Shown piece after piece: positions 50,873 to 62,299 of a DNA stretch of 64,000 nt. Position numbers and translations under genes: made by a program. The DNA is taken from positions 1,163,398-1,227,397 of the forward strand of contig BPGU01000001.1 in the NCBI GenBank assembly GCA_026003195.1, written 5' to 3'. The stretch's first letter is position 1; each line of letters begins with the position of its first letter. The notes under the pieces were generated by a model. It saw only the letters and a program-made list of their open reading frames with translations, did not search any database and had not been told where the DNA came from. This DNA comes from Armatimonadota bacterium (lineage in GTDB: Bacteria; Armatimonadota; HRBIN16).

Positions 50873-51697
50873 TTATGCCCTTCGGCGGCGCAGCAGCGCC
50901 AGCGCAGGCACCCCGCTCAGGAACAGCATCCACGTCGAGGCGTCGGGAATGACCGACGCAAACACCACGAAGTCCTGATAGTCTCCGTCGAATGAGGTGC
51001 TCTCCACCGTCACGTCCTCTACCCCGATGTAATACGACTGGTTCTTCGCCACCTCAAAGAAGGCGAAGTGCTGAACCGTCTGGTCCGCTGCCTGCGTGTT
51101 CAAACTGGACTGCGAGAACCAAGCCCACTTGGCAGTGCTAGGGTTGTTCTTGTCCTCCGTCGCCAGATACCAGCCGAAGTCCTGCCACGGTGGAGTGAAG
51201 GTCTTGATAGCACCTGCGGTATCACCACCGACGAACAGGCGCACGTGGTTTGCCGAAGAAGGAGTGAGCAGGGTATCCTTGTTGACCGCCACGTCTTTCT
51301 TGTAGATGCCGAAGTAGTTGTAGTCATCCAGCCCTGCCACCTCGATACGGATGGCTGCCCAGTTCGGGTCGGTGGAGGTGAAGTAGATGTTCAAATCTCC
51401 AGCCGAAGAGCTGCCAACGTAAGGATAGGCGACACCAGGCGAACTGGTAGAGTTCCAAAACGCACCTGTCTTGGCAATCCAGTTGCCGATGTTGCCGGGT
51501 TTGGTAAAGTCCTTGGACTTGCCATCCCAGTAGGGGTCTTCATCTTCGTTGGCATCCCCAACTAGGGTTTGGCTTCCAGCGGTACCACCGTTCCACGTTT
51601 GCGTTGTACTCACGCTGGGCTGCAGCGTCAACGCCTGTGCCGTGCCCACTGCCAGTGCCAGACCGGCTACCAGCGCGAACAGTACGAACCTTTTCAT
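50873..51697 (-). CDS. PEP-CTERM-like sorted surface protein, tandem copy 1
   Basis: A 274-residue secreted protein with a signal peptide (KRFVLFALVAGLALAVGTAQA), a beta-rich body of unknown fold (e.g. WIAKTGAFWNSTSSPGVAYPYVGSSSAG) and a C-terminal sorting signal: VIPDASTWMLFLSGVPALALLRRRRA. The signal has the layout of PEP-CTERM (short motif, hydrophobic helix, Arg cluster) but with PDAS in place of PEP. In other bacteria exosortase cleaves and anchors such proteins. The start ATG 51697 follows GGAGGG. A sigma-54 promoter lies 63 bases upstream. It is about 95% identical to the copy at 52666-53490 (14 differences by hand count). Confidence 0.85.
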   Translation of the reverse strand: MKRFVLFALVAGLALAVGTAQALTLQPSVSTTQTWNGGTAGSQTLVGDANEDEDPYWDGKSKDFTKPGNIGNWIAKTGAFWNSTSSPGVAYPYVGSSSAGDLNIYFTSTDPNWAAIRIEVAGLDDYNYFGIYKKDVAVNKDTLLTPSSANHVRLFVGGDTAGAIKTFTPPWQDFGWYLATEDKNNPSTAKWAWFSQSSLNTQAADQTVQHFAFFEVAKNQSYYIGVEDVTVESTSFDGDYQDFVVFASVIPDASTWMLFLSGVPALALLRRRRA

Positions 51698-51759
51698 TCC
51701 TTTCCCTCCTTTTCGCAGTTTTCTGGGGGCTGCGAGTCCCCCTGCTATCCCATATATAA

Positions 51760-51775
51760 TGCAAGAAGCGTGCCA
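51760..51775 (-). promoter_or_regulatory. Sigma-54 (-24/-12) promoter of tandem copy 1
   Basis: Minus strand: TGGCAC-GCTTC-TTGCA, a perfect match to the TGGCAC-N5-TTGCW consensus, followed by TTATATATGGG. The expected start site is ~50 bases before the ATG. The same arrangement precedes the two other PEP-CTERM-like genes. Confidence 0.88.
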
Positions 51776-51805
51776 CAGGCGGGGATCGAGAACCTGAGAA
51801 GGCAC

Positions 51806-51820
51806 ATTTTTATGAAAAAT
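51806..51820. promoter_or_regulatory. AT-rich dyad upstream of sigma-54 promoter 1
   Basis: ATTTTT-ATG-AAAAAT, a 6-bp inverted repeat 30 bases upstream of the -24 element. Similar dyads lie at the same distance before the other two sigma-54 promoters. Confidence 0.55.
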
Positions 51821-52145
51821 TGTCAAGGTCAACTCGATATATTGCCTGTAATGAGTGATGTAATACATTACAAGTAGATAGAGGGAGCTATAGTAATCTG
51901 TCAAGCGTTCATCTCGTCAACGGTTATGCTCCGCCACAATCCAGGTGTCATGGCGAGCGCGAGCGAAGCCATCTCCTGCGCCAGAGCAACCTTATCCCCG
52001 TCCCCTCTTATGAGAAGAGGGGTGATTGCGGTTCCCCATTCCCCCACAGAGAAAGGGGATAAGGGACGAGGGTGAGACACCAACGGCTCGGCAGGAGCCT
52101 CGCCCTCCACAGGGAGAGAACAAGGATCATGCTTGCATAGTAGTC

Positions 52146-52253
52146 TGTCAGAACTTTTTCTTAAAATGTTGGTGTTGTCTCAGCGATTGAAAATCGCAGG
52201 CAACATCCCGCGAAACCTGCTCACGCAGGTTATCCACCCCCGAAGGGGGTTTT
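52146..52253. repeat. About 108-base structured intergenic repeat, copy B
   Basis: It follows copy A (45171-45279) base for base with about a quarter of positions changed, mostly in the first 45 bases. Conserved are GCGATTGAAAATCGC, the near-palindrome AACCTGCTCACGCAGGTT (one base off the perfect copy A form), and CCCCCGAAGGGGGTTTT. Confidence 0.8.
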
Positions 52254-52618
52254 GTCCACATTGCCCGCGACTTCCAGTCGCCGGGTGGTCTATGGCAACT
52301 TTGACGCTTGAAGGACTACTAGTGGTCGCTTGTCTAGCATGATTCTCGCTTTTACCCTGTGAGGGGCGAGGCTCCTGCTGAGACTCTGTGTCATGGCGAG
52401 GATGCGCTAGCATCCGAAGCCATCCCCTTTGTGAGCGCAGGAGATTACTCCGCCGCTTCGCGGCTCGCAAGGACACATCGGTCGCGACGGAGAGCAATGT
52501 TTGACAAAATGGGGGATGGACAAATAATGGAAAATGCGCCGATAGGCAGTTTCTCACTGCAGCACGGCGCATTCTCACAGGTTGGTACTTCTGGTTAGCC
52601 GGTCTGTTTTTCGGAGAA

Positions 52619-52654
52619 GGGAAAACCTGCGGTGGGCACATCGCAGGTCTTCCC
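52619..52654 (-). terminator. Hairpin after tandem copy 2
   Basis: A 13-bp stem (52619-52631 with 52642-52654, one mismatch) 11 bases after the stop of the second gene on the minus strand. The following T-run is weak (TTCTCCG), so termination is probable but not certain. Confidence 0.5.
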
Positions 52655-52665
52655 GTGTCGTTCAC

Positions 52666-53490
52666 CTATCCTCTTCGGCGGCGCAGCAGCGCCAGCGCAG
52701 GCACCCCGCTCAGGAACAGCATCCACGTCGAGGCGTCGGGAATGACCGACGCAAACACCACGAAGTCCTGATAGTCTCTGTCGAATGAGGTGCTCTCCAC
52801 CGTCATGTCCTCTACCCCGATGTAATACGACTGGTTCTTCGCCACCTCAAAGAAGGCGAAGTGCTGAACCGTCTTGTCCGCTGTCTTCGTGTTCAAACTG
52901 GACTGCGAGAACCAAGCCCACTTGGCAGTGCCAGGGTTGTCCTCGTCCTCCGTCGCCAGATACCAGCCGAAGTCCTGCCACGGCGGAGTGAAGATCTTGA
53001 TAGCACCTGCGGTATCACCACCGACGAACAGGCGCACGTGGTTTGCCGAAGAAGGAGTGAGCAGGGTATCCTTGTTGACCGCCACGTCTTTCTTGTAGAT
53101 GCCGAAGTAGTTGTAGTCATCCAGCCCTGCCACCTCGATACGGATGGCTGCCCAGTTCGGGTCGGTGGAGGTGAAGTAGATGTTCAAATCTCCAGCCGAA
53201 GAGCTGCCAACGTAAGGATAGGCGACACCAGGCGAACTGGTAGAGTTCCAAAACGCACCTGTCTTGGCAATCCAGTTGCCGATGTTGCCGGGTTTGGTAA
53301 AGTCCTTGGACTTGCCATCCCAGTAGGGGTCTTCATCTTCGTTGGCATCCCCAACTAGGGTTTGGCTTCCAGCGGTACCACCGTTCCACGTTTGCGTTGT
53401 ACTCACGCTGGGCTGCAGCGTCAACGCCTGTGCCGTGCCCACTGCCAGTGCCAGACCGGCTACCAGCATGACGATAAGGAACCGTTTCAT
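52666..53490 (-). CDS. PEP-CTERM-like sorted surface protein, tandem copy 2
   Basis: A 274-residue paralog of the copy at 50873-51697. Differences cluster in the signal peptide (residues 5-8) and the second half (DEDNPGTAK for DKNNPSTAK, KTADKT for QAADQT, DMTV for DVTV, DRDY for DGDY, final G for A). The middle, about 470 bases, appears identical at DNA level. The sorting signal is VIPDASTWMLFLSGVPALALLRRRRG. GGGAGGG precedes ATG 53490 and a sigma-54 promoter is 63 bases upstream. It is followed by a hairpin. Function unknown; probably an extracellular matrix or surface layer component. Confidence 0.85.
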   Translation of the reverse strand: MKRFLIVMLVAGLALAVGTAQALTLQPSVSTTQTWNGGTAGSQTLVGDANEDEDPYWDGKSKDFTKPGNIGNWIAKTGAFWNSTSSPGVAYPYVGSSSAGDLNIYFTSTDPNWAAIRIEVAGLDDYNYFGIYKKDVAVNKDTLLTPSSANHVRLFVGGDTAGAIKIFTPPWQDFGWYLATEDEDNPGTAKWAWFSQSSLNTKTADKTVQHFAFFEVAKNQSYYIGVEDMTVESTSFDRDYQDFVVFASVIPDASTWMLFLSGVPALALLRRRRG

Positions 53491-53552: not shown

Positions 53553-53568
53553 TGCAAGATTCGTGCCA
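53553..53568 (-). promoter_or_regulatory. Sigma-54 (-24/-12) promoter of tandem copy 2
   Basis: Minus strand: TGGCAC-GAATC-TTGCA followed by TTATATATAGG. It is a perfect consensus match and in the same position relative to the start codon as in copy 1. Confidence 0.88.
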
Positions 53569-61663: not shown

Positions 61664-61679
61664 TGGTACGAATCTTGCA
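61664..61679 (+). promoter_or_regulatory. Sigma-54 (-24/-12) promoter of the lectin-like gene
   Basis: TGGTAC-GAATC-TTGCA followed by GTATATAAATAG. The N5 GAATC is identical to that of tandem copy 2, and CCCCGTTTG precedes it as CCCCGCCTG does in copy 1. One base (T for C) differs from consensus in the -24 element. Confidence 0.82.
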
Positions 61680-61738
61680 GTATATAAATAGCGGAGAGAT
61701 AGAGTACGCCCCTGTGTGGGATGAAAGGAGGTATCACT

Positions 61739-62299
61739 GTGTCATTCAGCATCTATCGCCGGATAGGGCTGGTTCTTGGCTTGAGTCTGTTGCTGGTTCC
61801 TGCGGCGTACAGCTACACCCTGCTCAACTCTATCGTCTGGTCCGGGAACGGACACCTGTACCAGGTTTACGGAGGCTCTTCCTCCTGGCAGGACGCAGCA
61901 GCCTTTGCCAGCACGGTTAGTGTGCCGGGCTTTTACAACGGCTACCTGGCAACCGTGCACAGTGCAGACGAGAATGCAGTTATTACCAGCTTGCTTACCC
62001 TACCCGCCTGGCTGGGGGGCTATCAGCCGCCGGGCGAGCTGGACCCGAACGCCAACTGGCAGTGGGTAACAGGTGAACCGTGGACTTACACCAACTGGTA
62101 CCCTGGGCAGCCCAACGATTATCTGGGACCGGGTAGCGAGCAGTATCTGGTTATTTACACCAACGGCATGTGGCACGATTACCCGCAGGGTACTCGCCCC
62201 AGCTTCGTCGTGGAGCTGAACCCTGTGCCCGACCCGGCAAGCATCGTGGGGCTGGGGGTAGGCTTGGTGGGACTGTTCCTGCGCCGACGAAAGCACTGA
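61739..62299 (+). CDS. C-type-lectin-like protein with PEP-CTERM-like anchor
   Basis: About 186 residues. Start GTG 61739 (AAGGAGGT 8 bases upstream) gives the signal peptide RIGLVLGLSLLLVPAAYS. The body reads like a C-type lectin domain: NGHLYQVYGGSSSWQDAAAFAST, YNGYLATVHSADENAVITSL, AWLGGYQPPGELDPNANWQWVTGEPWTYTNWYPGQPNDY and QYLVIYTNGMWHDYP. Disulphide cysteines are absent. The C-terminus VPDPASIVGLGVGLVGLFLRRRKH is a PEP-CTERM-like sorting signal with PDP in place of PEP. Likely secreted and surface-sorted, perhaps binding glycans. It has a sigma-54 promoter like the two tandem genes. Confidence 0.88.
   Translation: MSFSIYRRIGLVLGLSLLLVPAAYSYTLLNSIVWSGNGHLYQVYGGSSSWQDAAAFASTVSVPGFYNGYLATVHSADENAVITSLLTLPAWLGGYQPPGELDPNANWQWVTGEPWTYTNWYPGQPNDYLGPGSEQYLVIYTNGMWHDYPQGTRPSFVVELNPVPDPASIVGLGVGLVGLFLRRRKH

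Follow-up and report, generated by a model that had tools for sequence, protein, structure and literature searches.

An old tandem pair of putative exosortase-sorted protein genes in an Armatimonadota bacterium, probably homogenised by gene conversion

Concerted evolution of tandem genes by gene conversion is a general and well-known process, which leaves paralogues more alike within a genome than between genomes in their coding core, with flanks that still follow position. In the PEP-CTERM/exosortase (EpsH) system, proteins carry a signal peptide and, at the C-terminus, a short motif followed by a hydrophobic helix and an arginine cluster; an EpsI-family gene adjoins that of the exosortase and, in the form that involves PrsK and PrsR, −24/−12 promoters and RpoN are found together with the response regulator PrsR beside its histidine kinase. 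Here we describe two neighbouring genes, copy 1 and copy 2, in a stretch of 64,000 nucleotides (the window) from the genome of an Armatimonadota bacterium (contig BPGU01000001.1, positions 1,163,398–1,227,397), which, with the rest of their genome, resemble both systems in the respects named, the response regulator being PrsR-like. They depart from the PEP-CTERM system in their tag, which is PDAST and not PEP, and in their host, since the DNA motif is described in Proteobacteria in the relevant part of PMC1569441. Compared with concerted evolution in general, the exchange borders lie here in or near two sorting signals, so that the ectodomain would move as a unit, and the case concerns one pair in two genomes only. 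Neither conversion between tandem paralogues nor control of exosortase substrates by sigma-54 is new; the novelty lies in the phylum, the link between tag and promoter, and an activator without a DNA-binding domain. Our literature search found no paper on PEP-CTERM proteins of Armatimonadota (under the older name Armatimonadetes it gave one, which from its title deals with LuxI/LuxR) and none joining gene conversion and PEP-CTERM, and none of the papers found on concerted evolution of surface proteins was, by its title, about bacteria. Very probably, the two copies are old tandem neighbours, coding for secreted surface proteins with exosortase-type sorting, that gene conversion has homogenised.

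The gene pair and its identical core

Copy 1 (alpha position, 50873–51697) and copy 2 (beta position, 52666–53490) lie on the minus strand, separated by a spacer of 968 nt (51698–52665). Copy 1 encodes a secreted protein of 274 residues with a DUF4114 stretch and a C-terminal PDAST sorting signal, and copy 2 a protein of the same length from which it differs at 14 positions, a count given in the initial annotation that alignment confirms as exact. At the DNA level 21 of 825 nt differ, and these differences are unevenly placed: eight fall in nt 7–23, none in nt 24–496 and thirteen in nt 497–825 (ten residue-changing, two silent and one in the stop codon). The identical core therefore measures 473 nt (51202–51674 in copy 1 and 52995–53467 in copy 2, both on the minus strand), silent sites included. 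The identical stretch of about 470 bases noticed earlier is thus real, but its limits at 51205–51679 were shifted and took in the differing bases 51675, 51676 and 51679; all 21 differences are outside the core. When 21 differences were placed at random, none of 200,000 draws gave a clean run as long.

Age of the pair and separate histories of its parts

Homologues were searched for in 61 genomes, consisting of the window's own, nine others of its genus and 51 others of the phylum, and matches were obtained in ten of them (the window's own, eight of the nine and one of the 51). Within the window genome (4.58 Mb, 29 contigs) three homologues were recovered at E ≤ 0.001, namely the two copies and a 40% relative at C1:909422, which has a PEP-type tag and no promoter. 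No relative was found among viral contigs, and a search of named genomes gave none with copy 1 as the query and five loci with the alignment. The named relatives are Bacterium HR16 (HRbin16) and Chthonomonadia bacterium Ch118, probably identical to G003 and G001; Chthonomonadia is part of Armatimonadota. The order at the locus is MqnA, UbiA, a small open reading frame (ORF), the pair, a glycosyltransferase and LacI. Two copies stand in this order also in G002 and in G005, the closest relative found of the window genome, as well as in G003, where the order matches across the whole 7.9-kb contig (UbiA to LacI); G001 has one copy at the locus and another elsewhere in its genome. In G004 and G009 the contig ends within the gene at the locus, and G006, G007 and G008 were left out of the synteny comparison. 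Four genomes of the genus have the pair at one and the same locus, which most simply makes it older than their split. The initial annotation had proposed a recent tandem duplication; this is not supported, because G005, G003 and G002 have the pair in the same gene order, and we reject it, synteny and positional flanks both contradicting it. The spacer is 391 nt long in G005. Its portion 51890–52520 in the window matches a dispersed repeat, which the genome shows at 54 places counting this one, at 75–100% identity and in direct and inverted pieces.

The copies of G003 and G002 are unlike and differ in length (alpha 846 and 837 nt, beta 738 and 750 nt, stop codon included). In the tree built from the core, the beta copies of G003 and G002 and the locus copy of G001 form one group (support 100/99) apart from the alpha-type sequences, and the alpha-type side includes both window copies and both copies of G005. 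This tree joins copy 1 to copy 2 (98/99) and G005 alpha to G005 beta (97/94), and it rejects the pairings copy 2 + G005 beta and copy 1 + G005 alpha (approximately unbiased test, p 5.9e-6 and 2.4e-6). The upstream tree, drawn from 120 nt and with most branches weak, rejects the four sequences as one clade (p 7.9e-11) and also copy 1 + copy 2 (p 0.013); in it G003 beta is the partner of G005 beta (97/100), and G005 alpha, without strong support (85/85), that of copy 1. Upstream identity amounts to 82/169 between copy 1 and copy 2 and to 145/170 between copy 1 and G005 alpha. The cores of G005 alpha and beta are alike without being identical (405/432).

The same picture, for the flanks in part, emerges from the informative sites counted in a four-way alignment of copy 1, copy 2, G005 alpha and G005 beta. 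In the core, 45 sites group the sequences by genome, none by position and none crosswise. Upstream, 30 go by position, none by genome and one is crossed, and downstream the counts are 17, three and three. The 3' part of the genes (nt 497–825) has ten sites by genome and three by position, and its residues form a mosaic: 187, 202, 203, 206 and 229 are peculiar to copy 1 against copy 2 and G005, 166 and 238 are peculiar to copy 2, 183 and 274 go with position, and residue 184 of the window copies differs both from G005 and between the two. Such a patchwork points to at least two exchanges. The last exchange in the window genome extends over no less than the 473 identical nt. Copy 2, G005 beta and G003 beta all end in Gly, and the three alpha copies of these genomes end in Ala. 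A high-identity tract, positional flanks and discordant trees are thus found together, with the near leader of copy 2 as an exception, in a pair that three other genomes of the genus date before the exchange. Judged from these patterns, the window genome and G005 are a case of concerted evolution by gene conversion, in agreement with the conversion or recombination already proposed for this locus; the earlier observation was correct and its reading partly wrong, the pair being apparently old and the homogenisation recent.

The unlike pairs indicate where such an exchange could begin. In G003 the longest exact DNA common to both copies (29 nt) lies in the C-terminal sorting signal, as does the sole other exact stretch of at least 12 nt (14 nt); in G002 the two longest measure 16 nt each, and one of them is in this signal. 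Between G003 alpha and beta, nt 24–78 are alike at 39 of 55 positions and the 69 nt preceding the last 15 at 60 of 69. Conserved signal-peptide and sorting-signal DNA at the two ends may act as homology arms for RecA-type recombination; with such arms at both ends, the ectodomain would be exchanged while the promoter and the start of the signal peptide stay in place. In the ancestry of the window genome and G005, the beta-type ectodomain would have given way to an alpha-type one. The pair had been suggested as a possible means of varying a surface protein. What has left its traces is the opposite, homogenisation; what remains of the idea is this earlier swap of a beta-type for an alpha-type ectodomain, without evidence of on-going variation in one population.

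Several observations weigh against this reconstruction. The upstream tree also rejects copy 2 + G005 beta (p 6.7e-11), and by eye the leader of copy 2 is nearer to those of G002 beta and G001, so the orthology of copy 2 is based on synteny, site patterns and downstream sequence (138/183 with G005 beta), with which the near leader disagrees. The Gly end is not general, since G002 beta ends in Ala and the locus copy of G001 in Ser. The frame of G005 beta is broken by a stop in the assembly. In the same region of G005 (C2:856000–873000) the neighbouring MqnA and glycosyltransferase frames likewise match in two frames, and this hints at base errors in the assembly rather than true pseudogenes. Finally, a collapsed or over-polished consensus could by itself produce an identical core in an assembly. 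Such an artefact, in which diverged cores were collapsed or over-corrected, has the exact identity over 473 nt in its favour, as well as a genome in 29 contigs with an estimated contamination of 4.82%; we nevertheless regard it as improbable, because both copies lie in one contig of 1.34 Mb with unlike flanks and an unlike spacer, and because the core copies of G005, a separate assembly, also group by genome without being identical.

There is likewise little to recommend the view that the window genome and G005 each lost the old beta gene and then made a recent tandem duplication of their own. In its favour are core copies that are mutual closest relatives in both genomes, and the one copy that G001 has at the locus. 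Duplications would, however, have carried the flanks along, and upstream copy 1 is far nearer to G005 alpha than to copy 2; G005 beta retains the upstream sequence of G003 beta, and the terminal Gly has persisted in copy 2 and in the beta copies of G005 and G003. This view would require that nothing but the core was copied into the old position, an event that amounts to conversion. Strong purifying selection that keeps the core alike in both old copies without any exchange is hardly credible. In its favour, part of the ectodomain is encoded by the core, and a common partner of the two sorted proteins is conceivable; yet between genomes the core is the faster-changing part (copy 1 and G005 alpha differ at 61/443 positions there and at 35/329 in the 3' part), which rules out constraint as the cause of its identity. 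At this ratio about 24 differences would be expected between the cores of copy 1 and copy 2 and none is seen, even the silent differences that selection on the protein predicts being absent.

Sorting signals, promoters and activator

The C-terminal sorting signal of copy 1 (50876–50950, minus strand, residues 250–274) consists of IPDASTW, a hydrophobic helix and an arginine cluster; its counterpart in copy 2 lies at 52669–52743 on the minus strand. On reading the sequence, the N-terminal signal peptide, C-terminal motif, hydrophobic helix and basic end are all present, with helices predicted at residues 2–22 and 253–273. PF07589 (PEP-CTERM) gave no match for either copy at E ≤ 1, neither being among its 31 matches in the genome, and the VPDSG-CTERM model gave 14.7 and 14.6 bits against a cut-off of 25, so that both labels were rejected. 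Two exosortases are encoded in the genome (PF09721, 209.3 and 206.5 bits), both above the cut-off of TIGR02602 and neither reaching subfamily cut-offs such as that of XrtA, and an EpsI-family gene lies beside an exosortase gene; XrtC, the VPDSG-specific exosortase, was rejected as a partner (98.3 and 75.7 against a cut-off of 300). The designation as sorted proteins is therefore sustained in kind, by the signal peptide, the hydrophobic C-terminus with its arginine cluster and the two exosortases, though by no sorting-signal model above its cut-off; the architecture supports exosortase-sorted proteins in the broad sense.

The motif conserved before both copies, beyond whose near surroundings the flanks are not shared, is by its sequence a sigma-54 −24/−12 promoter of the form TGGCACG-N4-TTGC, matched against the general −24/−12 consensus. 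It reads TGGCACGCTTCTTGC before copy 1 (51761–51775) and TGGCACGAATCTTGC before copy 2 (53554–53568), both on the minus strand and 63 nt before the start codon. TGGCAC at −24, as given in section 7 of PMC9850573, and the GG/GC rule in the relevant part of PMC1569441 agree with that consensus. In the genus, the exact motif TGG[CT]AC-N5-TTGC stands upstream of 10 of the 11 PDAST-tagged homologues looked at, the one in G004 having one change, at 53–67 nt from the start codon; it is absent before two other relatives, one of them cut by a contig end before its tag. The leaders of the window copies fold no better than shuffled sequences (z −0.05 and 0.48), and leader hairpins as a common RNA element were rejected; among eight leaders folded, only those of G005 beta and G003 beta clearly beat the shuffles (z −2.34 and −2.37). 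These two share an 8-bp hairpin (L034 9359–9418, L035 4459–4518), and their leader is unlike that of copy 2 in the window.

When the genome was searched with the tag, 13 matches came up at E ≤ 10. Four of the eight read are of the PDAST type (copy 1, copy 2, C1:1246080 and C1:363789), and all four have a sigma-54 promoter; three PEP-type matches (L095, L096 and L098) are without it in the DNA examined, and the eighth is the PEP-type relative at C1:909422, which lacks it too. At C1:363598–363869 a 75-residue protein that is little beyond a signal peptide and a PDAST tag sits behind a sigma-54 site. Scanning the genome with the promoter pattern at up to two mismatches yielded 11 sites (none with the reversed control) and with a shorter exact pattern 19 (one with the control), 20 in union. 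By eye, seven of the 20 precede genes with an exosortase-type C-terminus and one the exosortase gene at C2:22009; the other 12, a point against the preferred explanation, precede other genes, several of them secreted-looking, or no convincing gene. By comparison of positions, two (C1:522963 and C1:1225619) of the 26 PEP-CTERM matches above the cut-off lie behind one of these sites. A third sigma-54 site in the window (61664–61678) precedes a secreted-looking ORF of 192 residues (61721–62299, plus strand) ending in a PEP-CTERM-like VPDPAS tag, which PF07589 matches. Also behind sigma-54 promoters are the related secreted-looking proteins L071, L086 and L088, two of which have visible SSPTLSGC-like repeats, and two 353-residue proteins (L084 and L085) very alike at the ends shown.

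A single RpoN is encoded in the genome, and a full sigma-54 activator domain occurs in a single protein (253.6 bits; C1:37887–39107, L089 7888–9108 on the minus strand). Four further matches to this domain (24.6–30.5 bits, cut-off 20.2) are partial, and such partial matches occur in 14 of 14 control genomes. The full activator comprises a receiver and an AAA domain and adjoins a GAF/PAS histidine kinase. No helix-turn-helix family of Pfam matched it at E ≤ 0.01; its frame ends after the AAA lid, and no continuation was found in other frames. The protein resembles PrsR, from which it differs in having no Fis-type DNA-binding domain, and its TIGR02915 (PrsR) scores of 419.8 and 420.7 bits stay below the cut-off of 502.6; the AtoC and NtrC models give it higher scores, which again do not reach their cut-offs. 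The adjoining kinase scores below the PrsK cut-off (105.4 against 300). Sigma-54 has been tied to the cell exterior in PMC3162934, in the available part of which PEP-CTERM does not figure.

The ectodomain and its possible role

The DUF4114 stretches (residues 173–246; 50960–51181 in copy 1 and 52753–52974 in copy 2, minus strand) score 34.2 and 34.4 bits with PF13448, above the cut-off of 27. The AlphaFold2 model has block means of the predicted local distance difference test (pLDDT) of 78–90 over residues 121–200. With this model, the first five rows returned by Foldseek are LecB-type lectins (best E 4.1e-3, probability 0.99), and the VIA list begins with 14 rows of the LecB-type family (Z 5.5 to 4.9), followed by thrombocorticin (4.5). 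Tempering this likeness are the mean pLDDT of 63 over the whole model, the lack of any Foldseek E of 1e-3 or below, the low Z of the best VIA match (5.5, 108 residues aligned, 3.6 Å) and a sequence profile that found no relative in the PDB at E ≤ 10. As such Z values may reflect a common arrangement only, the LecB-lectin-like fold is weakly supported by the model, a lead rather than proof. LecB-type calcium lectins bind two Ca2+ ions and sugar. Six residues (E227, D228, D237, D239, Y240 and D242) do not vary among the 10 sequences aligned and would be compatible with a calcium site.

Lectin rows head both fold lists, a possible link to the LecB, BclA and RS-IIL calcium lectins treated in part of PMC13190605; the ectodomain has no sequence match to solved structures, and its binding of calcium and sugar is only predicted. 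Among DUF4114 proteins, the domain of the Myxococcus xanthus pilus protein PilY1.1 is proposed in part of PMC9109919 to bind calcium and exopolysaccharide; the proteins described here share the domain and differ from this pilus protein in their exosortase-type anchor. An RpoN-dependent PEP-CTERM protein is involved in floc formation in Aquincola, according to the relevant part of PMC9850573. By analogy, our best guess is a role in holding the extracellular matrix. Both copies would be transcribed by sigma-54 polymerase, exported by Sec and processed by an exosortase, and the proteins would act as calcium-dependent sugar-binding matrix proteins; a pair of equal copies would give a higher dose under two promoters. 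From their sequences, the two proteins are most likely matrix adhesins of a calcium-lectin-like kind, controlled by sigma-54 and sorted by an exosortase, with conversion keeping their ectodomains alike.

The locus corrects a natural misreading, in that near-identical neighbours need not be new duplicates, and it provides a clean natural case in which the flanks and the coding core of one gene pair have separate histories. A connection between a variant sorting tag and control by sigma-54 also emerges, open to checking in other genomes. A broader proposal, which we put forward as speculative and rather doubtful, is that the sorting signals are built-in recombination arms and that these proteins form a module under a sigma-54 circuit of their own, made up of the PDAST tag, a sigma-54-driven exosortase and the sole activator. 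As every such protein must retain its signal peptide and C-terminal tag, ectodomains would be swappable while promoter and address tags stay; if this is true, the sole activator, being without a DNA-binding domain, could fire all sigma-54 promoters at once from solution.

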